A DNA stretch of 64,000 nucleotides from assembly GCF_013401555.1 (NCBI RefSeq), contig NZ_CP058552.1:248001-312000 (forward strand), written 5' to 3'. Below the pieces are notes generated by a model that saw only the letters and a program-made list of their open reading frames with translations, was not told where the DNA came from and did no database searches. The first letter of the stretch is position 1. Every line of letters begins with the position of its first letter. The DNA is from Paenibacillus sp. E222. GTDB lineage: Bacteria; Bacillota; Bacilli; Paenibacillales; Paenibacillaceae. Shown here in pieces: positions 15,385-58,738 of the stretch. The position numbers and the translations under genes are program-made.

Positions 15385-15448
15385 CACAGAGCAATGGAAA
15401 GGCTTATATGGGCTGTCGGCTAATCTCCCGGGAGGGAGGTGATGCCTT

Positions 15449-15529
15449 GTGACAGTATTTGAAACAATTATGCTAATGCTTACCTTCGGTTTGCTGCTTG
15501 TAGCGCTGCTGTCCAATAAAGACAAATAG
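15449..15529 (+). CDS. Holin-like type I toxin peptide (Hol_Tox family)
   Basis: This 26-codon gene encodes a single hydrophobic helix: MTVFETIMLMLTF, then GLLLVALL, then a charged SNKDK tail. The pattern M-x-V-[FY]-E-[TA]-I-x-L-M followed by a membrane helix and lysines is that of putative holin-like toxins (PF16935) and of TxpA/BsrG-type membrane toxins. The start is a GTG behind a very strong GGGAGGTGA site at 6 bases. An oppositely directed promoter and terminator downstream indicate an overlapping antisense RNA. The peptide is expected to insert in the cell's own membrane when not silenced. Confidence 0.8.
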   Translation: MTVFETIMLMLTFGLLLVALLSNKDK

Positions 15530-15661
15530 ACCGCCCTCTGGCTAAGGGATGCGGTCTATTTAGTCGGTACCCTGCTTGTTAAGCCCACCGCCCTTAAAAG
15601 CGGCTATTGCATCGGAGAGTCGTGTTAGCGCACGGCTCTCTTTGCATTATAAGCTGTTTCT
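15520..15661 (-). ncRNA. Antisense RNA antitoxin (RatA/SR4-like), proposed
   Basis: A strong minus-strand promoter at 15668-15695 would start RNA near 15661. A hairpin (minus strand ATAGACCGC ... GCGGTCTAT, plus coordinates 15526-15559) followed by TTGTCTTTATT would end it at about 15520. The roughly 140-nt RNA overlaps the 3' part of the toxin message, including its stop codon, as in convergent type I systems. The RNA itself is inferred from signals. Confidence 0.65.
15615..15645 (+). terminator. Terminator of the toxin message
   Basis: GAGAGTCGTG and CACGGCTCTC form a 10-bp stem with one G-U pair and a 6-base loop, followed by TTTGCATTAT. Confidence 0.65.
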
Positions 15662-39650: not shown

Positions 39651-39759
39651 GCTATGTGAAACTTCTTTCTCTCATCAAACGTAAATTCACAAGGTATAAT
39701 GAAATCAGATGACCGTTCAGCATGATCTTATGACCATCATAATGAAGGAGGGGATATTC

Positions 39760-42376: not shown

Positions 42377-42498
42377 TGTTAACCTCCATTTTCTGTTGAA
42401 TTGATTATACGACAGATATTAAAAATCTGATGGTTGATGACCAAATAGTGAATCTATACAATAACATTATACAACACGTTGTTGGATCATCAACAAAG

Positions 42499-43428
42499 AT
42501 GAATATGGATATTAGGAGGCTATCGACCCAATACGCTTGGGCTTTAGAGAAGGCAGGGCATACCGTTGAGTTTTACGTTAGAAAAGGGAGAAAAGAAACG
42601 TTCGGAAGTCATATCGCGCTTGAAATGTGGGACGCACGAAGAGGAAAACAGTTCATCCAAGAAAGCTGGAAAATCAAGCTGCATGAGGAGATAAGCCCAA
42701 ATTACGATCTCATTATTGCGAGTGTCAATACGGAGCAACTTCCCGAAGCAGCAAGAATACTTTCGACTACTGCTGGTAACACCCCGATCCTAATATTCAA
42801 TAATATTTGGCAGGATTTAAAATCATCAATCTTGCCCCTGTCTATGAACAACGTTGTCTTTGGGTTCCCAGGAGCAGGAGGCGGCATTGAGGACAATAAG
42901 CTTAGGGGCGGCTTTTTAAAAATGATATTTCTGGAAAAACCACGGGTTGGCACGGAACAGATAAACAACAAGGTCAAAGAACTATTTGAAAGCGCCAATT
43001 TTAAAATCAATTGGATCAAGGATATGCAAAGCTGGCTATGGAATCACTATGCCATGAATGCGGCGATGGAGACCGAGGTGCTCAAACGGGAAAGTTTCCC
43101 AGCAATCTTGAATCACAGTGACTCATTCGCAAATGTCGGCAACAGTATGCGGGAAATGACCCCTGTACTTAAAGCAAGAGGCGCCAAGATGGACGCGATT
43201 ACTCTACTGTTGACCAAGATTCCACCAGCACTTCTCGGCATGCTGTTTAACAAGGTTATTTTTGCAAAGGGCAGCTTACCACGACTTTTCATTGAATACA
43301 ATAATAGTACATCCAGTTTTGCAGTACTTGAAGTTGTGAGAGAAGCCAAAAAGTTAGGTATACCTTTGCCACGTCTTACCTCGGCATTAGAAAACACTGA
43401 ACAACACACAAGTATCGAAAACGGATAA
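42499..43428 (+). pseudogene. Ketopantoate reductase-like gene, N-terminus decayed
   Basis: Residues after YAWALEKAGHTVEFYVRKG follow the PanE/ApbA family to the C-terminus (WNHYAMNAAMETEVLK ... EVVREAKKLGIPLPRLTSAL). In the family the N-terminus should carry a GxGxxG nucleotide-binding loop. Here it reads MNMDIRRLSTQYAWA; fragments such as TTAGGAG and TATCG of the expected loop are visible out of frame, so a deletion/frameshift removed it. The open frame extends up to 42430 without family likeness. NADPH binding should be lost. A truncated relative lies at 58907-59152. Confidence 0.75.
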
Positions 43429-44184: not shown

Positions 44185-45231
44185 TTAGATGTGATTTTCC
44201 CTGAAAGCCTTTAACATTAAAAATAATTGATTATTAAAATGCACTTCATTCGTATATATTTTTGTAAATAAACCAATGCACTTGTCTATGATTTCCCCAG
44301 TGAACTTTTGGGACATGATGGCTTTATTCGAATAGATCCTTACTGTCTTCCAGTCATGAATAATTTGGTCCAATAACGGGTCAAGCGTATGTTTTGCATG
44401 GATATGATCAATGTTGTACTTATAGAGCGTATTTAACCTGTATTTCTCAGAACATTTTCTATAAATAGTACTGCTAAGTGTTTCTATAATCGTTTCATTT
44501 TTTATAATGAGCTCGTAATTTTCTGCGAGCAACAGTATATTATCCAAATTTTCTGTTATTTCATTTTGATACCTGCACATATTTTCTACGAATGTATTGA
44601 TGGTTGTGTGTGCTGACTTCTTATTGTTCAGAATCTCATGGTTACCGAGGGGCACTAGCGCATATTCCCAAAAGTAATCTGGCATCTTTACGTGTTCCGA
44701 AGTCATGCATGACCATTTAAATTCTGAAAATGGCAGAGAATATTGTCTGTATTCTGTAATATCATCAACCGTATATATTTCCTCGTTCGTAAGATTGAAG
44801 CCATAGACAAAAACAGGGTGCAGTCCATGTTTTTTGTTATAGTAAAAGTCTCTCCCGCGTTGATAAAATAAATCAATAAATATGGAAATCGGATGACCAC
44901 TAGAAATAGAGTTTATGATCTCATCTTGTAACGTATCTAGTGCAGGGGATTTTTTACGAATAGAGATCCCCATTTCTTCAAGGATCTGATCTCCCTCCTC
45001 AAGATCCAACACCTCTAACTTGAAATATCCTCTTGTTTGTATTTTTTGTTTATCAAATCTATAAATACTAATGACATTATTCAAAATCGGCAGCTCATCT
45101 TTTTTAAAATATCTGGCAAGCGTTAACAACAAATTGTAGTCGCAATTAAAATAAGGAAAATTATGATGAGGAAACATTTTTGTCATGCCGTCGAAGGGCT
45201 GAAAGGTGTCCAGGGAAATCATTTCTTCCAT
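44185..45231 (-). CDS. BtrH-like papain-fold protein (candidate acyltransferase)
   Basis: This 348-residue AT-rich gene is last in the island operon. Its N-terminal half resembles the BtrH N-terminal domain (butirosin protein H, which moves an acyl group from a carrier protein to an amine). A candidate nucleophile is Cys30 in YFNCDYNLLLTLARYF. His138 lies in HGLHPVFVYGF and an Asp at 156-157 in IYTVDDI, a Cys-His-Asp order. The C-terminal half is helical and variable. AGGAGAAATATT precedes the ATG. A paralogue at 55416-56483 lacks the Cys. If the fold is right, it would release or transfer a carrier-bound acyl group. The family match is by eye. Confidence 0.6.
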   Translation of the reverse strand: MEEMISLDTFQPFDGMTKMFPHHNFPYFNCDYNLLLTLARYFKKDELPILNNVISIYRFDKQKIQTRGYFKLEVLDLEEGDQILEEMGISIRKKSPALDTLQDEIINSISSGHPISIFIDLFYQRGRDFYYNKKHGLHPVFVYGFNLTNEEIYTVDDITEYRQYSLPFSEFKWSCMTSEHVKMPDYFWEYALVPLGNHEILNNKKSAHTTINTFVENMCRYQNEITENLDNILLLAENYELIIKNETIIETLSSTIYRKCSEKYRLNTLYKYNIDHIHAKHTLDPLLDQIIHDWKTVRIYSNKAIMSQKFTGEIIDKCIGLFTKIYTNEVHFNNQLFLMLKAFRENHI

Positions 45232-45277
45232 ACAATATTTCTCCTATACTAAAAGTATTGTCGATATTACGGCTATA

Positions 45278-46231
45278 TTACCTCTTAACAAGGTTCATCA
45301 TACGGTATTGCCGCGTTCCAGCCTTCATCTCTTCATATTTCTTCGAGCCGGGCAATGCGATGAAATCATTAATATCTCCAATATTCGTGCTTGCTTTGGC
45401 GTTGCTCGCAATCCCTTGTGTGCCAGTACGCTGCTTCGCACTCTCATCACATGATAGAAGAACATTCGAAGTCACATCCTGATTACGGATTACAGACAGG
45501 CCTGCTTCCTCTAACAGCCTGACGTTCTGCGCTACCTGATCTCCCAGCATCAGCTCCGTATACAGAAATACACCGCCAACTCTCATTATCCGGTACACCT
45601 CTTCATAGAAGCGTGATCGGTTCGGATAGGCATGCGCGGATTCTATATTTAACACCACATCGAAGCTCTCGTCTGCAAACGGTATATTCTCCGCATCGCC
45701 GACGAGATACAAAGATTCACCCCCTCGGGATTTGGCATTGCAATAGGCAATATTCTCCGGGCAGATGTCGAGACCGACAATAGACAGCGGCTTGAAATAT
45801 TTAGACAGAGCTGCTATGTTCCCTCCCCTGCCGCATCCGATGTCGATCACCTGCCGCTCCCGAATCGCCGTCCTGCCCACTGTCTCAAGCAGCAGCTTGA
45901 CTGAGTTTCTATTCCATGCATCGCCCGGCTCGATCACCGCATGTTGCTCATTCCCGTCCGGGACGTAACCATAATTTAAGAAGGTGGCGAATCGGCCTAT
46001 ACCGGACAGCGCAAGGGAGTGCGAAATCTCGCTATAATCCCGAATTTCAGCCTCTTTCCGGTTCCAATCGGAAGGGTGAGCAACCTGCTCACGCCGGTCG
46101 AGCATCGATACATAACGCTCATCTTTCGTATATACCGCATCGCAGCTGCAGCATTGCAGCAATGCCTCCGACTGGACCAGCACGCCCTTGCAGCTGGAGC
46201 ATACCAACCTTGCATGCAGATGCTGTAGCAT
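45278..46231 (-). CDS. SAM-dependent methyltransferase with N-terminal zinc ribbon
   Basis: This 317-residue class I methyltransferase begins with a zinc ribbon of Trm112-like spacing (CSSC ... CCSC, about 11-31), then the SAM-binding motif VIDIGCGRGGN (about 130-140), DAENIPFADESFD (about 183) and LRVGG-like RIMRVGGVFLY. The start is the ATG at 46231 preceded by GGGGGATAATC. It lies 2 bases after the FkbM gene and 46 before the BtrH-like gene. It probably methylates the product of the island; the position is unknown. Confidence 0.85.
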   Translation of the reverse strand: MLQHLHARLVCSSCKGVLVQSEALLQCCSCDAVYTKDERYVSMLDRREQVAHPSDWNRKEAEIRDYSEISHSLALSGIGRFATFLNYGYVPDGNEQHAVIEPGDAWNRNSVKLLLETVGRTAIRERQVIDIGCGRGGNIAALSKYFKPLSIVGLDICPENIAYCNAKSRGGESLYLVGDAENIPFADESFDVVLNIESAHAYPNRSRFYEEVYRIMRVGGVFLYTELMLGDQVAQNVRLLEEAGLSVIRNQDVTSNVLLSCDESAKQRTGTQGIASNAKASTNIGDINDFIALPGSKKYEEMKAGTRQYRMMNLVKR

Positions 46232-46233
46232 GA

Positions 46234-47085
46234 TTATCCCCCAGCCGAAATATGCATTTGATTCAATGCATACACATTGTAGTAATTGGGTATATTCAAG
46301 TCTTCGTAGTAATCGATCAAGACATGGAAGCCGTTGGTTCGGAAGATGTTCTCGAGCCTGCTGATCTGTTCTCCGTCCAGTCCGTGTACCTCCATAACAA
46401 TTTGCCTGATTTTGCCCCAATCCTCCGGCTCTATGCCTTCCAGGACCTCAAATTCACTTTTTTCCACGTCGATTTTGAGCAGATCAATGGTGTTCAGATC
46501 GTAATAGCGGATCATTTCAGAGATCGTAGTTAGCTTGCATCGATGGATTTGTTCATTCAGAAGCTTCGGCGACATAAGTTGATCCACAAACCGGTTTAGC
46601 ATGCGCGGGTCGTCGAAATGATCCCGGTAATGGTTGATTAACCCGTATCGGAGATCTTGATCGTGGTTCTCCCGGAATTTGATCTGCACAGAATCCGTGG
46701 ACATCGTAGGAAAATAGGCAAACTCCGCTTCCTTGATCTCATTGGAAAGCCCGACGTTAACCGTTGTTACGCGAGGCAGCGAGCTCGTATTCATCTTCAA
46801 GAGCTTAAACGTCGGAGGCAGTGGCTCAAAGGCATATACCCTGCAGTTGCTCTTGCTGCTGACATACAGGGTGAACATGCCGATATTAGCCCCGACGTCC
46901 ATGACCGTGCCATGATCCGGGAGCGTAATCCCGTGCTTGAAATACATCTCCTTCTGGAAAATCTCGTTGTAGAGGAACTCGGTCTCGCCTTCGTTGTTTT
47001 GATAGATTTCGATCCCGTTGTGCAGCTGCTTCTTGGCAGTGGCCTCTGTCTGCGGCGAAAAGCTCTTGTACTCCATCCCGCTCAT
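46234..47085 (-). CDS. FkbM-family methyltransferase
   Basis: This roughly 283-residue enzyme has the FkbM SAM-binding motif VMDVGANIGMFTLYVS (about 61-76), the acidic VYAFEPLPPTFKLLK loop and the C-terminal IDLLKIDVEKSEFEVLEG motif typical of FkbM O-methyltransferases. GAGAGGGTGA lies before the ATG at 47085; an ATG at 47106 is possible but lacks a site. It lies between the ABC permeases and a second methyltransferase, so it is likely a tailoring enzyme for a hydroxyl group of the product. Confidence 0.88.
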   Translation of the reverse strand: MSGMEYKSFSPQTEATAKKQLHNGIEIYQNNEGETEFLYNEIFQKEMYFKHGITLPDHGTVMDVGANIGMFTLYVSSKSNCRVYAFEPLPPTFKLLKMNTSSLPRVTTVNVGLSNEIKEAEFAYFPTMSTDSVQIKFRENHDQDLRYGLINHYRDHFDDPRMLNRFVDQLMSPKLLNEQIHRCKLTTISEMIRYYDLNTIDLLKIDVEKSEFEVLEGIEPEDWGKIRQIVMEVHGLDGEQISRLENIFRTNGFHVLIDYYEDLNIPNYYNVYALNQMHISAGG

Positions 47086-47123
47086 TCGATTCACCCTCTC
47101 AACCATTTGTTTTTGGCATTTCT

Positions 47124-47936
47124 CTAACTGCTGGCGCTCTCATAGTGTCTGACGGCCAGCTTCCAGAACAGCCTGACCACTAGAAGCGATATCACAGGAG
47201 CTGCAAAAATCCATATCCCAAGGAAGAAGTCCAAGCGGTCGATCAAATAAACCGACGGCATGTTGGTGATAAACAAGATAGGCACGACATACAGCCCCAT
47301 CCTCTGCAGCCATTTGGGGTATATGTACATCGGCATATTGTTCAAATCCCAACATTTGTCCAGAATGTCGAAGATCGAACCGGACTTCACCGTCCAGAAA
47401 GCAAGAATTTGCGGAAGCAGAAGCACCGAGTACATCACGATCGTGCTGCTCAAGATCACGCCGATATATCCCGCCAAGTGGATGAAGCTTGGCTCGATGC
47501 CAAGCCGCCGCCAAGCCAGTACGATCATCGTGATCCCGGCGATCAGGTTCGGAATCGGAAACGCGTAGTTAACGTTCCGGAATGAAATCATGAACTGCAG
47601 CGATAGCGGCTTCGTCATATACAAGTCCAGCGTTCCGTTGCGGATATGGCCGGCGAATCTATAAAAGTTATCCATAAACAATCCTGTATAGATTGCGATC
47701 ATAATCGTATAGGTCCCGGTGAAGATCATCATCTGATCAGGAGAAATGCCATTAATTTCGATCCCCAGCCGGAAAACGAAGATGATATAGATCAGCTTGG
47801 AAAACAGAAATACGGTCTCCATGATCAAACCGGAGTAGAAATTCGCTTTGTATTCCATATAACCGACCAAACTGTTCTTTGCGAAAATAAAAAACATGCG
47901 TACGTGCTTCCGAATCTCACTCAAGCGGATACTCAC
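47124..47936 (-). CDS. ABC-2 type permease (ABC2_membrane_6/DUF990 family), second subunit
   Basis: This 270-residue protein has six membrane segments and the DUF990-like pattern (KNSLVGYMEYKANFYSGLI near the N-terminus, GHIRNGTLDLYMTKPLS in the middle). Such permeases come as pairs with one ATPase. The GTG at 47936 is preceded by TTGGAGGTT, so it starts 4 bases after the first permease's stop. It should form an exporter heterodimer with the preceding gene product. Confidence 0.85.
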   Translation of the reverse strand: MSIRLSEIRKHVRMFFIFAKNSLVGYMEYKANFYSGLIMETVFLFSKLIYIIFVFRLGIEINGISPDQMMIFTGTYTIMIAIYTGLFMDNFYRFAGHIRNGTLDLYMTKPLSLQFMISFRNVNYAFPIPNLIAGITMIVLAWRRLGIEPSFIHLAGYIGVILSSTIVMYSVLLLPQILAFWTVKSGSIFDILDKCWDLNNMPMYIYPKWLQRMGLYVVPILFITNMPSVYLIDRLDFFLGIWIFAAPVISLLVVRLFWKLAVRHYESASS

Positions 47937-47940
47937 AGAT

Positions 47941-48750
47941 CTAACCTCCAACCGCTACATATTTCTTCATCCCGGAATCCCAGGACAACTTGGAAATGAC
48001 CAAAAGCACAATTACCCAAACCGCCTGTACGAGGAGCCCGCTCACGATCTCATGAACCGCCAAGCTCCCGATGATGATCTTAACCGGGAAGAATACGACA
48101 TACTGGAACGGTAAATAGCTGGAGATTGTGGCAAACGTATCCCCGAAAATATTAAGCGGAAAGATGGCGCCGCTGAGCAGATAGACGCCTTGGTTGAACG
48201 CGATATACACGCCCCAAACCTCAGTAATGATGAACGCGAGCGCACTAATCGAATAAAAAAGCAGAAAGTTGATGAGCATTCCGAACAGAATACTGACCAG
48301 GAACATAACGATCTGCCCCACTCTAAGCGGAAACTCCCAAATCTGAGTAAACACGGTCATCAATATGACGAATAAGACAAGGACGACCCCGGTCTGAACC
48401 GTTTTCTCACCGAAGAAATTGCATATCCGATAGCTGAAATAATGAATGGGCTGAGCGATAAATTTGCTTAGTCCGCCCGTCTTGATATCATTCGCAATCT
48501 CCCCTTCGAAGCCGGCAGAAACCAGCTTGGAGACGACGCCGGACAACACGGAATAAATGATGATCTGTGAATACGTATAGCCGTTAATAATCTCTTGGGG
48601 CGAGCTGCGGAACACGGCTGTCCAGAGGAAGCATTGGACGAGTATGATAAAGCCGCCGCTGATAATACTCATCAGGAAATCGGTCCGGTACTCCATCGCA
48701 TTCTGAAGCGCAAGGATGTACGTCCTTTTATACTTCTGCAAGGCTTTCAT
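47941..48750 (-). CDS. ABC-2 type permease (ABC2_membrane_6/DUF990 family), first subunit
   Basis: This 269-residue protein with six membrane segments has the same order of motifs as its partner (LQNAMEYRTDFLMSIISG, IANDIKTGGLSKFIAQP). Its ATG overlaps the TGA of the ATPase gene (ATGA), so translation is coupled. It forms the transport channel with the second permease and the ATPase. The substrate is probably the island's product. Confidence 0.87.
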   Translation of the reverse strand: MKALQKYKRTYILALQNAMEYRTDFLMSIISGGFIILVQCFLWTAVFRSSPQEIINGYTYSQIIIYSVLSGVVSKLVSAGFEGEIANDIKTGGLSKFIAQPIHYFSYRICNFFGEKTVQTGVVLVLFVILMTVFTQIWEFPLRVGQIVMFLVSILFGMLINFLLFYSISALAFIITEVWGVYIAFNQGVYLLSGAIFPLNIFGDTFATISSYLPFQYVVFFPVKIIIGSLAVHEIVSGLLVQAVWVIVLLVISKLSWDSGMKKYVAVGG

Positions 48751-49733
48751 GTCTGTACCACATCTTTCTGATATAAGCTTTCAATGCCTCGCTCGACAGG
48801 TATATCTTCAACTGTGAAATCGAGGATCGGGAACCGGTCCAGTATCATTTTCGAAAGCCGCTGGAGGTCATGCTTATTGATTTCCATGACGACATTCATG
48901 CCGTCATGTTGAGTTATAGTGCCATAGTCGCTTAGCGCTTGCCTCGGTACTTCGTCCGTAAATTGCAGCTTGATAATCTTTTTGGCATGGAACAGCTCGT
49001 TCACACGCCGAAGATCGCCGTCGTATACGATCTTCCCTTGATTGATGATGATCGTTCGTTTGCATAGATCCTCAATATCCGCCATGTAGTGGCTTGTCAG
49101 AATGACCGTTGCCTTCGTCTGCTGGTTATAATACTTCAGGAACTCCCGAATGCGCTTCTGCGAAATCAGATCGAGTCCGATTGTAGGCTCATCCAGGAAA
49201 ATCACCTTGGGCCGGTGGATGAGGGACGCAATAAGCTCCATCTTCATCCGTTCCCCCAGCGAGAGTCTCCGCACCTGAATATTTAGCAGTTCTTTAACGT
49301 CAAGCATCTCCGTAAGCTCATCCAGGACAAGGTTGTAGGGCTTATCCTCGACCTCATAAATGCATTTGTTCAGGTACAACGATTCGTTCGCCGGCAAATC
49401 CCACCACAACTGCGATTTCTGCCCCATCACGATCGAGAACTGCATCTTGAATTCTTTTTTTCGCTCCCAAGGGACATAGCCTAATACCGTCGCTTGCCCG
49501 CTTGTCGGATACAAGATGCCGGACAGCATCTTAAGCGTAGTCGTTTTGCCTGAACCGTTCGGGCCTAAAAATCCGACCATCTCACCCTGCTCGATTACAA
49601 GAGATATTTCGCTAACCGCTTCTTTGATCAGTGATTTCCGCTTCACTAAATTTTTGAGCGATTTTTTGAGCCCCAGTTCTTTCTCGTAATACTTGAAGCT
49701 TTTGGATAACCCCTCCATCTGGATAATACTCAC
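48747..49733 (-). CDS. ABC transporter ATP-binding protein
   Basis: This 328-residue ATPase of the ABC-2 export type has Walker A GPNGSGKTT (about 57-65), a Q-loop at MGQKSQLWWDLPA, signature LSLGERMKME (about 158-167), Walker B VIFLDEPTIGLD (about 177-188), an H-loop in LTSHYM, and a C-terminal extension of about 95 residues. The GTG start has GAGGTG at 5 bases. It is followed by two permease genes with overlapping start/stop, together a complete exporter. Confidence 0.93.
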   Translation of the reverse strand: MSIIQMEGLSKSFKYYEKELGLKKSLKNLVKRKSLIKEAVSEISLVIEQGEMVGFLGPNGSGKTTTLKMLSGILYPTSGQATVLGYVPWERKKEFKMQFSIVMGQKSQLWWDLPANESLYLNKCIYEVEDKPYNLVLDELTEMLDVKELLNIQVRRLSLGERMKMELIASLIHRPKVIFLDEPTIGLDLISQKRIREFLKYYNQQTKATVILTSHYMADIEDLCKRTIIINQGKIVYDGDLRRVNELFHAKKIIKLQFTDEVPRQALSDYGTITQHDGMNVVMEINKHDLQRLSKMILDRFPILDFTVEDIPVERGIESLYQKDVVQT

Positions 49734-49765
49734 TTGCGCACCTCATTTATGTGAATTTAGAATCG

Positions 49766-50944
49766 TTATACACCATGCAAATGCAAGACACTGCACTTGG
49801 AACATGCCGGTGTCAGTCTTTCATCCATCATTTCCCTTATCCTTCTGTAGGTCATGCTATGCCATAATTCCTGTACGGACGTATCATGTAATTTGCCGAT
49901 CTCGAACTCCTTGAAAAATTTGCATGCGATAATTGTTCCATCGGGCGTAATATCCATCCGATTCGAGAGAGCCAGGCACTTCTTGTTCATCGTGCCGTTA
50001 CCTCTCACCTCTTTGCCAAGCACGAAATCTTCGATCTGGTCATGATCCAGATTCGGCTGGTAGCGTAAACGCATTTTCCAGACCCGATTATTCACCCGGT
50101 CCAACTCGCTCATCAAAGCAGGGATACGCTCCGGATCGAGCTTGTAGTTAAAGGCGTGCCAGCTTCGTTCGCCCTTGTGCTCGCTCGCCGGAAGGAAGTC
50201 GAACTTCTGGTCAAAGTAATCGTCCATTCCCTGCGTGCATTCGTCCGAGATGTACCACGGGAAGCAGACCATGACCATATCTACACCGACGTCCTCCAGA
50301 AAGTCCAGCAGATCGTAAAGCCTGTCAGTCATACCATCGTTAACGACGGTATGGATCGTAATTTTGCCCCTGAATCGGTTTTCTTTGCGCAGCTCGACTA
50401 GCATCCGAATAGCATCTATCGCCTTGTTGAATACCCCTTTGCCGCGAAGCGCATCATTCTCTTCTTCGAATCCATCAAGCGCAATGAGCAGCTCCAGGTT
50501 GTCGGAGATTCTCAGCAAGGCGTCCAGCTTTCGCTCGATCAGCACCGCGTTCGTGCAGATCGTCGTCTCACGGGGATGGGCTTCAAGCAAATCGGCCAAA
50601 CGGTCGAAATGGCTGTATACGAGCGGCTCGCCGCCCCAGATATAGAGTCTCGACTTGGCTGGTTCCGTCTCGAGGATCAGCTTCTCCAGCAGCCCGTAGT
50701 CGAGCTGTTCGCGCTGCTGCTCCGGTGTCATGAAGTGATGGTAGCCGGTGTCGTTCCATTGATAGCAATGTTTGCAGCGCAAGTTGCATTGGTTTGTCAG
50801 TTTAATCCCGACCGACTCTGGCAGCGGTGTCGCGTAACCCGCTGTTTTCTCCATGTTCCGCTTGGTTTCCACCGTATTCTTGATAGTACGTTTCAATATT
50901 TGCAGATCCTTTGCGGAATGCTTAATCTCAGATTTCGGATTCAT
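49766..50944 (-). CDS. Radical SAM/SPASM enzyme 1
   Basis: This 392-residue enzyme has the 4Fe-4S motif CNLRCKHC (Cys53, 57, 60), the GGEP loop (WGGEPLVYSHFD) and a C-terminal SPASM domain with cysteines in KKCLALSNRMDITPDG, ACKFF and ACSKCSVLH for auxiliary clusters. SPASM enzymes modify peptides or, as in BtrN-like proteins, sugars. The nearest ATG with AAGAAGGGTG gives the start. It stands next to a second, distinct radical SAM gene. With no precursor peptide visible nearby, its substrate may be carrier-bound or a sugar. Confidence 0.9.
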   Translation of the reverse strand: MNPKSEIKHSAKDLQILKRTIKNTVETKRNMEKTAGYATPLPESVGIKLTNQCNLRCKHCYQWNDTGYHHFMTPEQQREQLDYGLLEKLILETEPAKSRLYIWGGEPLVYSHFDRLADLLEAHPRETTICTNAVLIERKLDALLRISDNLELLIALDGFEEENDALRGKGVFNKAIDAIRMLVELRKENRFRGKITIHTVVNDGMTDRLYDLLDFLEDVGVDMVMVCFPWYISDECTQGMDDYFDQKFDFLPASEHKGERSWHAFNYKLDPERIPALMSELDRVNNRVWKMRLRYQPNLDHDQIEDFVLGKEVRGNGTMNKKCLALSNRMDITPDGTIIACKFFKEFEIGKLHDTSVQELWHSMTYRRIREMMDERLTPACSKCSVLHLHGV

Positions 50945-50986
50945 ATCAACACACCCTTCTTAAACGTAATAGGTCATTCACATGAA

Positions 50987-52075
50987 TCAGTAGATATAAT
51001 ACCTTGAACAAGCCGTACAAATCGGAAGCATATTTTTTTTCATATACGCACGATACTCTTTGTAATTGTCACTGCGCCAGATATCCAGCAAATTCGCTTC
51101 GTTCACGTTGCCGAAGGTCAAATCATAGAAAGCATGGCAGGGCGAAACGTCGCCCCTTGCCGTAATCTCCGCATAAGTCCATGGAAGGGAGCAGCGTTTT
51201 CGTTTATCTGCCATCTGATGGAATTGTCCCGAGAAATAGTTGTGCAAATTCTGTTCATCTATCGTCTTCGGATAGGTGATCACATGGATACGGTTTTTCA
51301 GGCAATAATCTTTAACATTATTGAGCTGTCTCGTCAATTCGGGAATATCGATCTGGCTGAACGAACCGATGTCTTGCCAGACCATCCCCTTGGCATACGG
51401 AGCTTCATACACGCCGAATTCCTCACGAAGAACCTCCACATATTGGGCATACTGCTCTTCCGTGGCATAGAGCTGCACTTCCATGCTGATATGGTCCAAC
51501 ATCGACAAGTCGATATACTTAAAGAAAAATTCCTCGACGTACATATAGTTCAAGGGCGTAATGATAAAGGAAACACCCATCTTCGGAAATTGCTTGCCTT
51601 TGCTTTGCCGGAGCTCATAGAGCTTCTCGATCCCTTTGATTACTTTCTTGAATACGCCTTTGCCCCTCTGCCTGTCGTTGATTTCCTCAGGTCCGTCGAG
51701 CGACACCCAGATCTTATTGGGCGGAGTCTCGACTAGCATCTCGGCATGCTTCTCAAGCAGTGTGCCGTTCGTGGGGAAGTCCGCTATGCTTCCATAATGA
51801 TTGATCATGGCGAGAATGTCGCTCAGCCAAGGGTACATCAGCGGCTCGCCGCCGAAGAAATCGTAATACGGCTTGCCGGGGCTGCACTCGGCGATGATCT
51901 TTTTGATCAGCTCCGGGTCCAGCTGCGCTAATGTTTTTTTGCTTTTGTAGGGTCCTTCGAGTCCCCATTCATAACACATTTTGCATCGCAAATTGCACTC
52001 CTCTAGCAGCTGCAAGACGATCCATCTCGGATAGCTTACCGTATCCTTGGCAACACTCAATTGATTTAAGCTCAT
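50987..52075 (-). CDS. Radical SAM/SPASM enzyme 2
   Basis: This 362-residue enzyme has CNLRCKMC (Cys27, 31, 34), a GGEP loop (FFGGEPLMYPWL) and a C-terminal SPASM region (RCSLPWTYAEITARGDVSPC ... CTACSRY). The two radical SAM proteins share layout but are only distantly alike, so they probably catalyse different steps. GAGGGGG precedes the ATG. It lies 42 bases upstream of enzyme 1 and 27 after the glycosyltransferase gene. Confidence 0.9.
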   Translation of the reverse strand: MSLNQLSVAKDTVSYPRWIVLQLLEECNLRCKMCYEWGLEGPYKSKKTLAQLDPELIKKIIAECSPGKPYYDFFGGEPLMYPWLSDILAMINHYGSIADFPTNGTLLEKHAEMLVETPPNKIWVSLDGPEEINDRQRGKGVFKKVIKGIEKLYELRQSKGKQFPKMGVSFIITPLNYMYVEEFFFKYIDLSMLDHISMEVQLYATEEQYAQYVEVLREEFGVYEAPYAKGMVWQDIGSFSQIDIPELTRQLNNVKDYCLKNRIHVITYPKTIDEQNLHNYFSGQFHQMADKRKRCSLPWTYAEITARGDVSPCHAFYDLTFGNVNEANLLDIWRSDNYKEYRAYMKKNMLPICTACSRYYIY

Positions 52076-52102
52076 CGCATAACCCCCTCTGCCATTGAAA
52101 TC

Positions 52103-53218
52103 TTACCTCTTCGTTAACGCAACCCTTGAACAATAGTGATCCACATAATTCGTCCGTTCACCGGGTCTGTTCTGGATCGCTTGATGCATCTCCTTAAGGA
52201 TATCTACAGAAAAATCCATCTCTCGCCACTTCTCGTAGCGTATTCCGAACCCAAGCGACTCCCACAATTCCAGATTGCTAAGCTCATGACTGCCGAACGG
52301 CTCCAGAAGAATAAGAGGGGTTTCGGAGGCAAGCGAGTCGATCAATGTGCCCGCTCCAGGCTTGGCCACGATAGCCATCGCCTCAGAAGCGACGTCAAAT
52401 AACCAATGATGATCAGCCTCAGCGGTGTATGAATTCGTATCTTCTCCCGCTATTTCAATATATGGCGGAAATTCGTGCAGGCCGTTCGCGCTCTTCACCC
52501 ATGAACACCATTCCGGATCGTTCATCCAATATCGGTGATCGGGATCGGGCTTCGCTTCCTTCCAGTCGTAAGCTACAATATCAAGCCCATAGTTATGGCC
52601 GGCAAGCTCTGGAATTGTACTTTGATAAGTGCCCATCCCCCAGCCGCCGCCATGAACAACAAGCCGCCGCTTCCTTGATTCGAAGGGCAGTGACGTACCA
52701 GGAAGAACCGAGATTTCGCATAGAATCGCCATCTTATCGGTGTCATAGAGACAAGCATTGTAATAATGCTCGTCATACAAGGGATGAAACTTCTTCAGGC
52801 TCTTCCAGGACGGGGCCAGATCTGAATCGACGTAGAGCAGGTCTACATGAATTGGATTCGGCAGCATCTTCTCCCTATACCAATCCAGAATATAGACCCA
52901 GTGTCCGGATAGCGATATGAATTCGTAGCGTTCTTCCGCTTTCCACGCCTCCAGCAATCGCTCGACCTGGGCGTAATCTATACTACCCCGGATATCCATC
53001 GGCATTCGGGCCGAAAAATTGGCAAGTGCGAAATTATTGTGGTACGCCGTCCTGCTGTCTGCTATATGCTCCCTCTTGTCATGCTCCAAATAGCTTTCGA
53101 ACACGAGCACTTCCGTCGCAATATCTCTTTTCCCGAAATCGCTTGCAGCTAACAGGCCGGGAATATAGAACCCCAGACCGAAACCCGAGCATAGAATCGT
53201 TACTTTCCGCTCCCCCAT
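52103..53218 (-). CDS. GT-B type glycosyltransferase (MurG/UGT-like)
   Basis: This roughly 371-residue protein has an N-terminal Rossmann start ILCSGFGLGFYIPGLLAA, typical of GT28/UGT-like enzymes, and a C-terminal nucleotide-sugar site: VAKPGAGTLIDSLASETP, then LILLEPFGSHELSN (about 306-337). The ATG at 53218 follows GGAGGAAGAG and is preferred over one 45 bases upstream. It probably attaches a sugar to the island's product. The donor is unknown; a sugar epimerase stub lies upstream in the operon. Confidence 0.75.
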   Translation of the reverse strand: MGERKVTILCSGFGLGFYIPGLLAASDFGKRDIATEVLVFESYLEHDKREHIADSRTAYHNNFALANFSARMPMDIRGSIDYAQVERLLEAWKAEERYEFISLSGHWVYILDWYREKMLPNPIHVDLLYVDSDLAPSWKSLKKFHPLYDEHYYNACLYDTDKMAILCEISVLPGTSLPFESRKRRLVVHGGGWGMGTYQSTIPELAGHNYGLDIVAYDWKEAKPDPDHRYWMNDPEWCSWVKSANGLHEFPPYIEIAGEDTNSYTAEADHHWLFDVASEAMAIVAKPGAGTLIDSLASETPLILLEPFGSHELSNLELWESLGFGIRYEKWREMDFSVDILKEMHQAIQNRPGERTNYVDHYCSRVALTKR

Positions 53219-53262
53219 AAACTCTCTTCCTCCATCCATGGTTTCAAGCACTTCGGAATGCA

Positions 53263-54621
53263 TCAGCGGGCGATCTTGAAGGATAGCGACAACAGAACCT
53301 CCTTAAGCTTCGCGGATAATCGTTCGTTATCCCCTGTCCCCTCGATCAGCGAATAATACAATCTGCCCTTCACCTGCTTATTCCGGATCCCCTTGCACTC
53401 GCTGACGACCTTGTTAATAAAGAGCGTATTCGCGCTTAACGGTAGTATGCCAAACCCTTGATTAGGCTTATATAGAACACCCTCGCGGTCCAGCGATTCC
53501 AGCAATTGATCGAATGATACATCACCTGCAAACTGTAACGTCGCATGTGTCATGCTCCCGGCCGTATCGTGCTTCTCGAGATACCGGTCAACGTAATGCT
53601 TGATCAGACTCATCGATCTTCTTGCATTGACCTCAACAATCGGAACGATGCGGCCGTCTCTTAGCAGCATTGAATCAACGCATACGTCGCCGTGATAACC
53701 CGACTGGTAAAGCTCGCGGGCCGCCAGCTTCATTACATCAAAGTACTCCGCTTCGTGCAGCATATGAAGCAGCCTGTCATCGGCTGTATAGGTGCCTTGG
53801 TAAGCGAAATTGTGATTGACCAATTGCTGTACAGAGATATGCCGGTACGTACCGTCCTGATCGATGTGGAATTGGCAAGAGAAATCCAGCTCCTTGAGGA
53901 GGAACGGCTCAATAATAAACCGAACCGTTCTTCCCTTTCTGCACTGATCGGCGAGATAGGATGTGACCCGCTGCAGAATCGCTTCCGACTCGATTAGCAA
54001 ATTCCCCTTTCCAGATACTCCAAACTCATCTTTGATCAGGAAGGGGCCTTGTTTTAGCAGAGCCAGGCCGCTTGACAGCAGTTCTTCGTGGGAATAGACC
54101 GTCTGGCTGTCACACTGAAGCTCAAGGCGACGGTTCAATTCGGTTGAATACAGCTTAGAGTTGACCGTCTGAACCGTCTCAACAGCTGGACAATCCTGTT
54201 CCAGACCGAAACGCGCAGCAGCACGGTCCGCCCCCGGAATGACCGCAAAGGGCGACAACCGGGCGCCGTTCAGCCATTCTGGATCCATGTCACCCACATG
54301 ATCAGTTGAGGTGAGCAGGTCGAATATATTGGCGGTTTTGCCTGCGCTTCCTCCATCAGGACTCTCAAGATCGGTTGAATTGGACAGAAATTGGAATCCG
54401 ATCTCATGCAAATACGCTTTATGAGAAGCGTTCATTCGATAACGGGTAATGAGCTTATCCTGCGCCCCGCAAAATGGGAAGAGCAGCTCATCCATGGCCA
54501 TCACGACATTCTCCATTGCAGGATCGTGAAACGACGGCAGTTTGGCTTGATTAGGGTCGCGCCAGAAGCGTTCCGCATCAAACGTCCCGATAATGAGCTC
54601 GAACTTGCGTCTATCGTTCAT
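53263..54621 (-). CDS. ATP-grasp ligase
   Basis: This 452-residue protein shows an ATP-grasp core: FLIKDEFGVSGKGN (about 219-232; flexible glycine loop), FIIEPFLLKELDFSCQF, GDVCVDSMLLRDG and the Mg-binding EVNARRSMSLIKHY. ATP-grasp enzymes join carboxylates to amines through acyl phosphates. In butirosin, BtrJ loads glutamate onto a carrier protein in this way. Its ATG overlaps the TGA of the carrier protein gene (ATGA), which suggests that the carrier is its partner. The loaded amino acid is unknown. Confidence 0.78.
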   Translation of the reverse strand: MNDRRKFELIIGTFDAERFWRDPNQAKLPSFHDPAMENVVMAMDELLFPFCGAQDKLITRYRMNASHKAYLHEIGFQFLSNSTDLESPDGGSAGKTANIFDLLTSTDHVGDMDPEWLNGARLSPFAVIPGADRAAARFGLEQDCPAVETVQTVNSKLYSTELNRRLELQCDSQTVYSHEELLSSGLALLKQGPFLIKDEFGVSGKGNLLIESEAILQRVTSYLADQCRKGRTVRFIIEPFLLKELDFSCQFHIDQDGTYRHISVQQLVNHNFAYQGTYTADDRLLHMLHEAEYFDVMKLAARELYQSGYHGDVCVDSMLLRDGRIVPIVEVNARRSMSLIKHYVDRYLEKHDTAGSMTHATLQFAGDVSFDQLLESLDREGVLYKPNQGFGILPLSANTLFINKVVSECKGIRNKQVKGRLYYSLIEGTGDNERLSAKLKEVLLSLSFKIAR

Positions 54622-54869
54622 GCAGATGCCGTCTTCTGCAGCTCCGAGATATAATTGCAGAAGACTGTAACCGATTCCATGCAATCGAAGTCGAATTGTT
54701 CGAAATCAATTTCAATGCCGAATCGCTCCTCCACCTTCAATAAGAAAGTAATTAGCTGTAAAGAGTCCAATCCCCCGTCTTCCATGATGCTGGAATGACC
54801 GTTCAAGCTGATTGCCAGCTGGGCATCGTCCTTGACTTCGCTTATCATCGCTATGATCTGTTCTTGCAT
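54618..54869 (-). CDS. Acyl/aminoacyl carrier protein
   Basis: This 83-residue carrier protein has the phosphopantetheine site GGLDSLQL (Ser about 35) and the usual helix pattern. The ATG at 54869 has GGGAGG 5 bases away. The open frame continues upstream into a sugar-epimerase stub, but the strong ribosome site marks the true start. It is coupled to the ATP-grasp gene. With no NRPS or PKS nearby, it probably carries an amino acid for the ATP-grasp and BtrH-like proteins. Confidence 0.88.
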   Translation of the reverse strand: MQEQIIAMISEVKDDAQLAISLNGHSSIMEDGGLDSLQLITFLLKVEERFGIEIDFEQFDFDCMESVTVFCNYISELQKTASA

Positions 54870-55106
54870 AGGTACCTCCCGTTTAATGGATATATTGACT
54901 TGGTAATAATGGATCGTTCTAGCGAGTGCATCATGCAAACTGATCGCCGGTTCCCAGTCCATGATCGTCCTTGAAATGGTTGTATCCCGATTCCCCAAAT
55001 GGACTGGCTGTTCATACGTGGTGCCCAGAAGTCTTATCATCCCTTCCAGCAAATCGTCGATATACTGAAAGCTTCTCGTCTGTCTGTTAAATATGGTTCT
55101 ATGCAT
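54870..55106 (-). pseudogene. NDP-sugar epimerase/dehydratase C-terminal stub
   Basis: In frame with the carrier protein, this stretch reads RTIFNRQTRSFQYIDDLLEG, then MIRLLGTTYEQPVHLGN, then MDWEPAISLHDALARTIHYY. These match the end of extended SDR nucleotide-sugar enzymes (UDP-xylose synthase/dTDP-glucose dehydratase type). About 25-30 residues usual between 'HLGN' and 'WEP' are missing, and the Rossmann part is absent. A decayed sugar gene once preceded the carrier gene. Confidence 0.7.
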
Positions 55107-55415
55107 GAATCACAAGATGTCGGGTCAAATACCAGGAGAGATTCTTGAGGTGAGTGGATTCGCTGTGGTTGTGCCGGAAAAAAGCGCTTGAAGCAATGCG
55201 GATCGTTGAAAGACAAGAAAGCAATAGGCTGTCAGCAAACGGAATTTTTAAGACAAGAGCAACGGTCTAGCTTACTCAATACGCTGTATCGCAACGATTA
55301 TAATCCCGGCATCACTCCCTCCAAAAAATGCCCTGATCACCACGGGCTCCGGGCTAAGGCTTCTATTCGATACAAGAAGAGATATCCACAACTGACATCA
55401 TCTGCTCCCTCAACA
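55107..55415. other. Gap between island sub-blocks, no recognised gene
   Basis: This 309-bp stretch separates the GC-richer block (45.3-55.1 kb) from the AT-rich block (55.4-58.3 kb). A plus-strand frame at 55188-55496 with scattered Cys/Lys runs into the BtrH-like gene and has no ribosome site or family likeness. It is probably debris at a junction. Confidence 0.45.
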
Positions 55416-56483
55416 TTACTGAATGCCTACCTTCTTCAGCCATCCTTCAAGGAATATGGATTCTTCATTTTCTATATTCGTAATCAGCGTTTGTAAGCTT
55501 TCGGAAATACTCGTATCCCTTGTCAAATTATATTTAATCGCTACATTCACAAGTATCTTAGCCTTAAGTTCAATGGCTGTGAATTCATCTATATGCTCTT
55601 GATTTAATTTATTTAAATGCCGATTATCGTACAAGTACTTGAATCTTAGCGTCATTATCTTCTTATGATCATAAAGTAAATGAAAGGGTCTTATATCAAG
55701 CATAGCCTTATGTTCCGATGTCTCTTTCGCATAATTTAATAGAGTTGTGTATATTTGCATGCCGAAGTCAAGATTATCCCTGTCGCCCCCGTAGTTGAAC
55801 ATCTCCCAATACTCCGGCGTTTTGTTAGTGAAATAATTTCTTATAGAATTCACTAGGGTATCTGCACTGAATTTATCCTGATATTGATCATTGAATGTAT
55901 ACAGATAAACCATTTCTCTAAGGTAATCATGATTCGTTGTTAGATGATTCGTGTCGAACGCAAGATTGAAATCATTAAATGATATCTCAGCCTGACTATA
56001 CAAGCCGTTCTTGAAAAAATCGGAAACATACAATATCTCTCTATCCAAATCATAGCCGTAAACAAATATGTCATGATGCAATTGAAGTTTATTGTAGCGA
56101 TCGCTTAGAGGCACGTAGAAATAATTGATCATGGTGTGGACATAGTTATTAGCATTAATATTTTCTACAATAAAATGAATAACAGAGTCCCATTTAGTTG
56201 TTACAGTATCTCTATGTATCTTTTGAGTAGTAATCCATTTGCACGTATCCGAAGGCCGCAGCTCATAAGTCACAGGGAAATAAAAATCTCCCCAATGATG
56301 ATTATAATCTTTGTTAATAAATAATTGGATATAATTGCTAAATATCCATGGGTGTGCGCACTCGTAATGGGTAAGTATGGACAAGAGATGAGCATGTTGC
56401 GTATAGGTTGTAATCATCGGATAACTGACCGGCAATATTTTTCTCCTTAACGTTTGAGTTGAATTCTTCAACCTTTCGTTCAC
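55416..56483 (-). CDS. BtrH-like papain-fold protein lacking the nucleophile Cys
   Basis: This 355-residue AT-rich gene is a distant paralogue of the BtrH-like gene at 44185. It keeps the central HHDIFVYGYDLDREILYVSD motif (His137, Asp155) and the N-terminal AHLLSILTHYE helix. Where the paralogue has Cys30 it has Gln29 or a neighbour; the nearest Cys is 42. It may be a partner or scaffold, or use another residue. The GTG at 56483 is weakly supported; a TTG at 56471 with GGGGTG ahead is possible. It lies 38 bases after the ligase gene. Confidence 0.6.
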   Translation of the reverse strand: MNERLKNSTQTLRRKILPVSYPMITTYTQHAHLLSILTHYECAHPWIFSNYIQLFINKDYNHHWGDFYFPVTYELRPSDTCKWITTQKIHRDTVTTKWDSVIHFIVENINANNYVHTMINYFYVPLSDRYNKLQLHHDIFVYGYDLDREILYVSDFFKNGLYSQAEISFNDFNLAFDTNHLTTNHDYLREMVYLYTFNDQYQDKFSADTLVNSIRNYFTNKTPEYWEMFNYGGDRDNLDFGMQIYTTLLNYAKETSEHKAMLDIRPFHLLYDHKKIMTLRFKYLYDNRHLNKLNQEHIDEFTAIELKAKILVNVAIKYNLTRDTSISESLQTLITNIENEESIFLEGWLKKVGIQ

Positions 56484-56521
56484 CCCTGGTTATTTTGGTT
56501 AAATGGCTTAAGGATTCCGAA

Positions 56522-58015
56522 TCAGTATATCTCATTTAGCAATAAGCGCTTCGTGCTTGCCCTGTCCAGTTTTCCTGTTTTTGTTTTTGGAATGTCATCT
56601 ATAATCCTCCATTGTCTAGGCACTTTATACGATGACAAATGCAAGTTGCAATGTCGTGTCAGTGCATCTATATCCATCGGGTATTCATTAAAAACTTTCA
56701 GAAATGCGATGGGAACTTCACCTAACAGATCATCGTGTATACCAACAACCATGACCTCCTCCACTTCTTTCAAGCCGTACAAAAATTCCTCAATTTCTTC
56801 CGGATAGATATTGATACCGCCGGATATAATGATATTCTTCTTTCGGCCTGTGAGTATAAGACACCCTGATTCATTCCAATATCCCAAATCTCCTGTCTTT
56901 AACCAACCCTCAACAATGGTTGCGTTCGTTAACTCCGGGTTTTTGTAATAACCGAGCATCACATTCGGGCCCTTGACCCAAATTTCTCCGATAGCTGCTC
57001 CTTCTACCTCATTCTCTTCTTCGTCAACAAGACGAATAGAAACGTCATTTATGGGTGATCCACAGGATAAGCAGCGCTCTCCCCGTTCCATCATGCTCAC
57101 CCGCGGAGAAGCTTCGGTCAATCCATAGGTTTGAATAATGTCCGCGTGAGGAAATACAGCCTGAAGATGGTCTACTAATTTCGCGGGAATCGCCGCACCG
57201 CTAATTACAATAAATTCAATGGAATCAAAGGCACTCCATTTCTTTGTCTGATGGAAATCGGAAACAAAGTGCATCAACTGCGTAGGCACCGCTGAGAATG
57301 CCGTGACCGCCTTATTCTGAAACAGTTTAAACGCTGTGCGCGGCAGCAAGGGCAAGCTGACAAGTTTAATTCGGGCTCCATATAGCATGCAAGAAATCAA
57401 TTGCGTGACAATCGTAGAACTGAAATGAACGGGCATCGTTACAAGAAACGAATCCTGATCCGTATACCCCACCTTTTCGCCATGTGCCAACGCATTCGTT
57501 AATACATTCCAATGGGATAACATCACGATTTTAGATTTTCCGGTTGTGCCCGATGTAGGAAGGAGAATCGCACATTGATTGGGATCGGACTGATTTGTTA
57601 ACGAGATCGATTCGAACGAAGGCATTGCTTCTTGCGATAAATCCTGAGCGGTAACCCAAGGAATGTCGCAATTTAAATGCGCAGGCTGTGCATATTTGCT
57701 GATAACCAATTTGGCGTCACTGGCATTTAAAATATTTTCGATTTCAGTATTGGATGCCGAATAAGGAACCGGTACTAACACATAACCGCAGAATTGAATG
57801 CCCAGCGCCGCAAAAATGAACAAGGGCTCATTATTTGTGTATAGTGCAAGATGACTTCCGGACTCAAGCTCAAAATTCTTGTGGATATATAGAGCAATCA
57901 AGTAAGCTTCTGTCATCACCTCTGCGTAAGTCCATTGCTGCTTTAGATCTTCAAGGATAATATGATCTTGGCGATCAGAGGCCTCCAGAAATAGACGCTG
58001 AATGATAGTCATCAT
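56522..58015 (-). CDS. AMP-forming acyl/amino-acid ligase (ANL superfamily)
   Basis: This 497-residue adenylating enzyme has the core motifs LLPTSGTTGKSK (about 149-160), YGLTEASPRVS (about 294), LKTGDLGYW (about 370), GRKKNIIISGG (about 388) and the C-terminal catalytic Lys in KTKTGKLDR (about 484). It activates a carboxylic acid as adenylate and loads it on a thiol. Its start overlaps the stop of the carrier protein gene by 4 bases, so the carrier is its likely acceptor. The acid is unknown; the protein resembles acyl-CoA synthetases more than NRPS domains. Confidence 0.9.
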   Translation of the reverse strand: MMTIIQRLFLEASDRQDHIILEDLKQQWTYAEVMTEAYLIALYIHKNFELESGSHLALYTNNEPLFIFAALGIQFCGYVLVPVPYSASNTEIENILNASDAKLVISKYAQPAHLNCDIPWVTAQDLSQEAMPSFESISLTNQSDPNQCAILLPTSGTTGKSKIVMLSHWNVLTNALAHGEKVGYTDQDSFLVTMPVHFSSTIVTQLISCMLYGARIKLVSLPLLPRTAFKLFQNKAVTAFSAVPTQLMHFVSDFHQTKKWSAFDSIEFIVISGAAIPAKLVDHLQAVFPHADIIQTYGLTEASPRVSMMERGERCLSCGSPINDVSIRLVDEEENEVEGAAIGEIWVKGPNVMLGYYKNPELTNATIVEGWLKTGDLGYWNESGCLILTGRKKNIIISGGINIYPEEIEEFLYGLKEVEEVMVVGIHDDLLGEVPIAFLKVFNEYPMDIDALTRHCNLHLSSYKVPRQWRIIDDIPKTKTGKLDRASTKRLLLNEIY

Positions 58016-58254
58016 AGCGTTTTCTCAGTCAAATAATTAAGGATTAATCCAGCCGTGGAGAACTTCTCAAATAACAGATCTTCATCAGGGATCGAGATGT
58101 TAAACTTCGATTCCATTGAAACAATAAGCTTGATGAAGCCTACTGAGTCGATCCCTTGGTCCAACAAACGGGTATCGTGGTCTTGCGGATATTCAATGTC
58201 CAGCTCAGTAAAAATTTCATCTCTCAAGATAGATTCTATTGATTTAGACATCAT
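58012..58254 (-). CDS. Acyl carrier protein, first gene of the island operon
   Basis: This 80-residue carrier protein has the phosphopantetheine site GIDSVGF (Ser about 37) and a C-terminal SIPDEDLLFEKFSTAGLILNYL helix pair. GGGGGAAAC lies before two tandem ATGs (58254 and 58251). It overlaps the ligase gene by 4 bases. A promoter close to consensus about 480 bases upstream would start the whole minus-strand operon here. Confidence 0.88.
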   Translation of the reverse strand: MMSKSIESILRDEIFTELDIEYPQDHDTRLLDQGIDSVGFIKLIVSMESKFNISIPDEDLLFEKFSTAGLILNYLTEKTL

Positions 58255-58354
58255 GTTTCCCCCGTTAGATAATCTTTAGAAAAAGGCTGATTAAAGAGGA
58301 TCGTATAAGTGATGAGCAAATGAAAGTGATTGTGAAGAAGAATAAGTTCATAAC

Positions 58355-58621
58355 GATGGACAAGGTGAATTTGCACTGAAAGAGTTGTTTGCAGAGATGC
58401 TGCAATTCATGCTGGAGGCGGAGTATGACACGATGCAGGACATAAAAAGCTTGACGAGAAGAGTACAACGATGGAAATAATCGAGGGTTACCATCGTCAA
58501 CATCGCAAAGCCTAAAGAAAAAAGCATTTTCCCAAGCAATGAAGCTTTGCTGAAAATGCTTTACAAAACTAAGAGGAATGTCACTCGTAAATGGACAGGG
58601 CGTGCACAAAACTGGGACTAA
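58355..58621 (+). pseudogene. IS256-family transposase remnant, internally deleted
   Basis: The frame gives EFALKELFAEMLQFMLEAE and MQDIKSLTRRVQRWK with a stop at 58480. In a shifted frame it then gives KPKEKSIFPSNEALLKMLY and RNVTRKWTGRAQNWD with a stop at 58621. These match the start and the very end of an IS256-type transposase with the middle deleted. Confidence 0.8.
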
Positions 58622-58738
58622 TTTCACCCCGTCACCTCTCCATTTTCTTCCTCGACGTGATCGAACTATATTGCGTAAAGTTTTGCTTGGAGAGCGTTTA
58701 CACTAGTAGATTTACAGCACCAAGCGCCTGATATATTT

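Follow-up and report, generated by a model that had tools for sequence, protein, structure and literature searches.

What might a bacterium make with two free-standing carrier proteins, two kinds of ligase, a glycosyltransferase and two radical S-adenosylmethionine (SAM) enzymes, and which of these genes belong together? The genes lie in a 64,000-nucleotide (nt) stretch of the Paenibacillus sp. E222 genome (here, the window; contig NZ_CP058552.1, positions 248,001 to 312,000), where 14 genes on the minus strand, separated by short gaps or overlapping, run from position 58254 to 44185. A sequence-only reading had proposed a carrier-protein pathway without nonribosomal peptide synthetase (NRPS) or polyketide synthase modules, and all the gene classes it listed were found at 44185-58254; the carriers are free-standing, and in Pfam scans none of the 14 genes shows a condensation, ketosynthase or thioesterase domain. 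We confirm the 14-gene operon, which recurs as a unit and not by chance. The useful unit is a core of four genes (carrier, ATP-grasp ligase, GT-B glycosyltransferase, radical SAM enzyme), with the remaining genes as variable add-ons, and we think it somewhat probable that core and variable part form a free-standing thiotemplated pathway to a small, exported, glycosylated metabolite. The sequence-only reading missed this split between core and periphery, as well as a destroyed epimerase gene, a BtrH-like protein without its cysteine, and a second cluster in the same genome.

Using the ATP-grasp protein as query, we searched 295 Paenibacillaceae genomes. Matches at E 1e-3, a loose threshold that takes in distant members, occurred in 105 of them; 17 genomes, E222 included, encode a protein that shares at least 81% identity with the query along almost its full length. 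Twenty loci (designated by L-numbers, e.g., L040) were fetched for comparison: 18 chosen as the closest ATP-grasp relatives, plus two of a second kind. In 15 of the 20, all 14 genes are present with their order unchanged. L050 lacks carrier 1, the AMP-forming ligase and g3; L052 and L053 retain the genes from carrier 2 through the FkbM methyltransferase, with several outer genes missing; and L054 and L055 represent a different, shorter cluster. The ratio of nonsynonymous to synonymous substitution rates (Ka/Ks), calculated against three relatives, is 0.09 to 0.41 per gene for all 14 genes, the class I methyltransferase having the highest.

The core is defined by a wider set of 80 named loci, the best 80 of 250 DNA-scan matches gathered via the ATP-grasp gene. 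All four core genes were detected in 69 of these by BLAST (>45 bits), and eight more have a carrier with an LDSL or MDSL motif in frames upstream of the ATP-grasp gene, bringing the quartet to 77 of 80; the other three (L136, L140 and L144) lie at contig ends. Recurrence as a conserved unit, on which the sequence-only reading had staked its proposal, was thus found for the operon and for the quartet alike. In 75 of the 77 loci, the glycosyltransferase gene is the next same-strand gene after the ATP-grasp gene. Distance matrices of the core proteins are correlated (ATP-grasp/glycosyltransferase, r = 0.94; ATP-grasp/radical SAM and glycosyltransferase/radical SAM, both 0.91; pairs involving the short carrier, 0.77 to 0.79), these values having no shuffled control. 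Among 36 further family loci, 31 have both a glycosyltransferase and a radical SAM enzyme of the core families; the exceptions are L072, where no glycosyltransferase was detected, and L075, L085, L086 and L087, whose ATP-grasp proteins are merely 25 to 27% identical.

Most of the 80 loci (66) are from Paenibacillus or Cohnella. The other 14 are from Clostridium (four), Lachnospiraceae (two), Bacillota bins (three), Methylococcaceae/Methylumidiphilus bins (two), and Chlorobiaceae, Nostoc and Cyclobacteriaceae bins (one each). Because nine of these 14 are metagenome bins (L125, L140, L144, L151, L153, L157, L158, L165 and L169), phylum assignments there rest on binning; the cyanobacterial case is supported by glycosyltransferase proteins that carry Nostoc and Kamptonema labels. 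L157, the Nostoc bin, has its radical SAM gene ~6.5 kb away on the opposite strand. An even sample of the phylum yielded matches at E 1e-40 in 4 of 398 genomes, only one of them outside Paenibacillaceae, arguing that the family is rare beyond it. The E222 genome itself contains another, shorter cluster belonging to this family (L054 9706-17355; genome positions 4255856-4263505). Its locus (4246151-4266150) encodes a carrier, an ATP-grasp ligase, a glycosyltransferase, a radical SAM enzyme, an ATP-binding cassette (ABC) protein, two permeases and a BtrH-like protein, with 23 to 67% identity to the window genes.

Around the core, gene content varies. At a loose 45-bit cutoff, 54 of the 80 loci have an ABC ATPase (50 at 200 bits), and 50 and 49, respectively, have the two permeases; since exporter genes are found in just 49 to 54 loci, we regard the quartet as the core. 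BtrH-type genes are present in 46 loci and Gfo/Idh genes in 39, followed by L067-type class I methyltransferase (19), epimerase (16), FkbM (15), a second ATP-grasp (13), pyridoxal phosphate (PLP) decarboxylase (12), AMP-forming ligase (12), nucleotidyltransferase (8) and PIG-L deacetylase (5). Genes for UDP-glucose dehydrogenase, epimerase and nucleotidyltransferase adjoin the core in some relatives and point to a nucleotide-sugar donor. Several relatives of the glycosyltransferase are labelled "UDP-glucuronosyltransferase" by their sources; labels of this kind are assigned automatically and are no proof, but taken with the dehydrogenase and epimerase neighbors they suggest that the donor may be UDP-glucuronate or a pentose derivative. 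Some relatives carry butirosin-like sets, consisting of a second ATP-grasp, a PLP decarboxylase, a BtrH-type gene and, at times, a further acyl carrier protein (ACP); such a set is interleaved with core genes in L118, L120, L121, L126, L133, L135, L142, L147 and L150.

Both carriers have a phosphopantetheine-serine motif: IDSV in carrier 1 (58012-58254; 80 amino acids [aa]; PF00550, 36.9 bits, with a cutoff of 20.8) and LDSL in carrier 2 (core gene 1; 54618-54869; 83 aa; 29.4 bits). The earlier count of two carriers therefore holds, but the 162-aa frame listed as the second is a composite: its first 79 codons are epimerase debris, and the carrier proper starts at Met80, a start set from relatives with an intact epimerase. 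For carrier 1, which is found in the 15 fetched loci that keep all 14 genes, the nearest NCBIfam model is the AmcB cispentacin ACP, below cutoff. As the sequence-only reading supposed, each carrier gene overlaps the gene for a predicted ligase of a different type. The AMP-forming acyl/aryl ligase (56522-58015; PF00501, 222.9 bits; PF13193), presumed to load carrier 1, overlaps it by 4 nt; its closest solved relatives are 2-succinylbenzoate, fatty-acyl, feruloyl and 4-coumarate coenzyme A (CoA) ligases. The ATP-grasp ligase (core gene 2; 53263-54621), the presumed carrier 2 loader, overlaps it at ATGA (54618-54621). This protein has no Pfam match above cutoff; the family alignment shows invariant K197, E238, D316, E330, N332 and R334, which we take to be ATP-grasp positions. 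Against solved structures, its profile matched one chain (8ynd, "ATP-grasp peptide ligase"; 2.2e-7), for which no substrate is named there. The genome has two matches to phosphopantetheinyl transferase (PF01648).

The epimerase site comprises a 309-nt gap (55107-55415), the longest in the operon, plus codons 1 to 79 of the frame listed as carrier 2. In L040, an intact gene for a 323-aa NAD-dependent epimerase occupies the same place. Relative to it, the window retains two fragments, one covering residues 202-252 and interrupted by two stops, the other covering residues 290-318; the match identifies 54900-55133, also on the minus strand, as the remains of a gene resembling those for NDP-sugar epimerase/UDP-glucuronate decarboxylase. 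Of 18 orthologous loci, 14 have the gene intact, whereas L036, L037, L038 and L051 have only debris, as in the window. Another epimerase, 49% identical, is encoded elsewhere in the genome.

The glycosyltransferase (core gene 3; 52103-53263; 386 aa) matches no Pfam family at E 0.05. Its assignment as a GT-B enzyme is nonetheless borne out by an AlphaFold 2 model (predicted local distance difference test score, 90.1), for which Foldseek returned the GT-B proteins CalG3, SnogD and MurG. Core gene 4 (49766-50944; PF04055, PF13186) encodes radical SAM enzyme 2, which has a four-cysteine auxiliary site; Cys 53, 57, 60, 323, 341, 381 and 384 are invariant in 78 of 78 sequences, and its profile matches the C-terminal region of BtrN (5.8e-9). 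The accessory radical SAM/SPASM enzyme 1 (50987-52075; PF04055, PF13186), found in 22 of the 80 loci, has a BtrN-like C-terminal region as well.

The other tailoring and export genes that had been listed are also present. They encode a DrrA-like ABC transporter ATPase (48747-49733; PF00005; TIGR01188 below cutoff), ABC-2 permeases 1 (47941-48750; PF06182, 80.6 bits) and 2 (47124-47951; PF06182, 134.9 bits), an FkbM-family methyltransferase (46234-47106; PF05050, 66.2 bits; TIGR01444 above cutoff) and a class I methyltransferase (45278-46231; PF08241) that starts at Met64 of its listed frame. The last has a Cys-rich N terminus, and its relative in L067 has a Trm112p-like domain.

Two further proteins, g3 (55416-56483) and g14 (44185-45231), had been called BtrH-like. 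Both score below the PF14399 gathering threshold (19.9 and 16.8 bits versus 29.7), and the g14 match to PF13529 (C39-like) is subthreshold too. The likeness stands for g3 at the level of fold: most of its predicted structure can be matched to CcbD, CtaG and AziU3 (residues 19-352 align to CcbD and 20-352 to CtaG), as a modeled papain-like fold with a C-terminal helical bundle. Identity to CcbD across the aligned residues is 8%, and the g3 profile found nothing better than E 0.11 among solved structures, so that its relatives come from fold comparison alone. What does not carry over is the nucleophile: g3 keeps His137 but has no cysteine at the expected place, nor do 30 of 31 aligned g3-type sequences (the exception being L087 10483-11313), and the BtrH-like protein of L054 likewise lacks it. 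By contrast, g14 keeps Cys30 and His138 in 18 of 18 loci and Asp156 in 17 of 18; neither g14 nor one BtrH-like relative had a sequence match in the PDB.

How far do known systems account for this combination? For closthioamide in Ruminiclostridium cellulolyticum, the ATP-grasp enzyme CtaD is predicted for one carrier and the acetyl-CoA-synthetase-like CtaI for the other; as in the E222 operon, there is no NRPS and each of two carriers has its own predicted loading enzyme, and there is a peptidyl transferase, CtaG, whose fold the g3 model shares (PMC6772006). Unlike the operon, the closthioamide system has a thioamide synthetase, CtaC, and no glycosyltransferase or radical SAM enzyme is mentioned in the excerpt (PMC6772006); Pfam scans list no thioamide synthetase (CtaC, AANH type) domain among the 14 genes. 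One glycosyltransferase of the core family (P0156) is labelled as coming from R. cellulolyticum, the closthioamide producer. In mitomycin biosynthesis, MitB glycosylates 3-amino-5-hydroxybenzoic acid on the carrier MmcB, and the radical SAM enzyme MitD is proposed for C-C bonding. This early stage (MitE, MmcB, MitB, MitC and MitD), with a ligase, a free ACP, an ACP-dependent glycosyltransferase, a deacetylase and a radical SAM enzyme, is a parallel to the inferred core, but loading is by a CoA ligase instead of an ATP-grasp enzyme (PMC8621148); a PIG-L deacetylase gene occurs in 5 of the 80 related loci. The view that no named pathway has such a combination is thus not upheld in that form: dual loading has been proposed for closthioamide, mitomycin offers glycosylation on an ACP together with a radical SAM step that has been proposed, and thiotemplated logic without NRPS modules is already known. 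We found no published description, in the open-licence literature, of the quartet or of an ATP-grasp, BtrH, carrier and radical SAM set.

The butirosin side-chain unit comprises BtrI, BtrJ, BtrK and BtrH, plus BtrN; BtrK is a PLP decarboxylase acting with the carrier. The operon resembles it in its ATP-grasp and carrier, its BtrH-type proteins and its BtrN-like radical SAM region, but Pfam scans list no decarboxylase among the 14 genes. Moreover, the core ATP-grasp is just 24 to 25% identical to the second ATP-grasp of L056, L057 and L062; that of L056 has PGM1-type domains. BtrH is an ACP:aminoglycoside acyltransferase (PMC10318531), and CcbD forms amides from carrier-bound acyl groups via a catalytic cysteine (PMC12945683), the residue by which the lincosamide enzymes CcbD/LmbD differ from g3. 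Azinomycin AziU3/U2 is described as an aziridine synthase in function (PMC12559475).

In the pathway we infer, the ATP-grasp ligase would load the phosphopantetheine arm of carrier 2 with an amino acid or a similar acid, the GT-B enzyme would glycosylate this acid while carrier bound, and radical SAM enzyme 2 would perform an oxidation or C-C change on the bound conjugate. In the variable part, the AMP-forming ligase would place a second acyl or aryl acid onto carrier 1, and g14, a putative CcbD/CtaG/BtrH-type protein with a Cys-His-Asp set, would form an amide. The cysteine-free g3 may act on a carrier-bound substrate by a noncovalent or different reaction, while radical SAM enzyme 1 and the two methyltransferases would decorate the product and the ABC-2 transporter would export it. 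Carrier-bound glycosylation is suggested by gene association and the mitomycin precedent, dual loading by closthioamide, and amide formation by CcbD, whose cysteine accepts the acyl group that the carrier delivers.

Several observations weigh against this pathway. Since the 80 loci were gathered via the ATP-grasp gene, the quartet count presupposes that gene. The window and 4 of 18 relatives have lost the epimerase, which shows this local sugar gene to be dispensable. Foldseek TM-scores for the g3 and glycosyltransferase folds are only ~0.5 to 0.6, and the glycosyltransferase profile also matches processive diacylglycerol glucosyltransferase (2e-8). MitB, at ~33 kDa with its tag (PMC8621148), is shorter than this 386-aa GT-B protein, so that parallel is functional, with homology not shown. 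Among solved structures, the core radical SAM profile matches the peptide maturase SkfB best, with BtrN ranking below it. Finally, glycosylation could occur before loading or after release.

This last point leads to the alternative that survives best, which we nonetheless consider rather unlikely: the substrate of the glycosyltransferase is free or already released, and the carriers are needed only for making the amide, with acyl groups moved to the amine of a separately made amino sugar as in lincosamides or butirosin. CcbD couples an amino acid on its carrier with an amino sugar (PMC12945683), and both the butirosin-like accessory sets of relatives and the BtrN-like radical SAM region fit such a scheme. 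Pfam scans of the 14 genes show no aminotransferase or other amino-sugar synthesis gene, however, and BtrH-type genes are found in 46 of 80 loci, whereas carrier and glycosyltransferase are found in 77; the carrier therefore has a role where no such transferase is identified.

That the operon modifies a glycolipid or the cell envelope, through a MurG- or diacylglycerol-glucosyltransferase-like enzyme, a fatty acyl group on carrier 1 and ABC-2 export to the envelope, seems improbable. The glucosyltransferase profile match would fit, as would the best NCBIfam model of the AMP-forming ligase (a long-chain acyl-CoA ligase subfamily, below cutoff) and the fatty-acyl-CoA synthase among its solved relatives. 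Against this, the best structural matches of the glycosyltransferase are antibiotic glycosyltransferases, and patchy distribution (as in the family and phylum samples above) with variable tailoring typifies secondary metabolism.

SPASM proteins often mature peptides, and many NCBIfam peptide-maturase models match the radical SAM proteins, all below cutoff among the best 25; together with SkfB, this might suggest a ribosomally synthesized and posttranslationally modified peptide. We judge this very improbable, because the carrier-ATP-grasp pair is near universal and because no same-strand short open reading frame (18 to 110 aa, outside genes) exceeds a count of 8 among 16 orthologous loci. The only one to reach eight overlaps the end of g3, and the comparison gave no good precursor candidate, in agreement with the sequence-only reading. 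That the operon is a decaying, nonfunctional remnant in E222, as the destroyed epimerase might imply, is hardly credible, since the 14 other genes are open with Ka/Ks values in the range given above and the four orthologous loci without an epimerase all retain the 14 genes.

The flanks yielded a few further observations. A convergent downstream gene (42430-43428) is matched beside the cluster end in 6 of 18 loci (L037, L038, L041, L043, L044 and L046), so these clusters may sit at a common chromosomal site; this gene may be an operon member. The other four of five flanking proteins have matches in few or no loci within the short flanks fetched. In the operon leader (58265-58627), an opposite-strand short frame (58385-58480), present in 11 of 16 orthologous loci, resembles transposase debris by eye. 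A T-box or riboswitch might have hinted at the amino acid, but across five sources there was one Rfam match, and none within operon regions. Elsewhere in the window, Rfam detects a BsrG small RNA (15390-15638, plus strand; 70 bits versus a gathering score of 55), and a leucine-rich-repeat protein (39709-41625) has a weak, below-cutoff, zinc-ribbon-like match at its N terminus.

Returning to the carrier-bound pathway, we tentatively suggest that the quartet, with its one-auxiliary-cluster radical SAM enzyme, marks an undescribed, cross-phylum class in which a glycosyl amino acid is built and radically remodeled on a dedicated carrier. Exchangeable acyl-transfer modules would then cap it, and in one type of module a BtrH/CcbD/CtaG-fold protein without the cysteine would catalyze a reaction different from that of the known acyltransferases with this fold. 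The core ATP-grasp and glycosyltransferase reach no curated cutoff, and the carrier and radical SAM enzyme match only generic domains (Pfam and the best 25 NCBIfam models), so rules based on domains may flag clusters of this kind poorly. If the proposal is correct, the four-protein set would offer a simple in vitro reconstitution of carrier-bound glycosylation and radical chemistry, and a class of glycosylated natural products would accompany an ATP-grasp family found, at the loose threshold, in 105 of 295 Paenibacillaceae genomes and in other bacterial groups.

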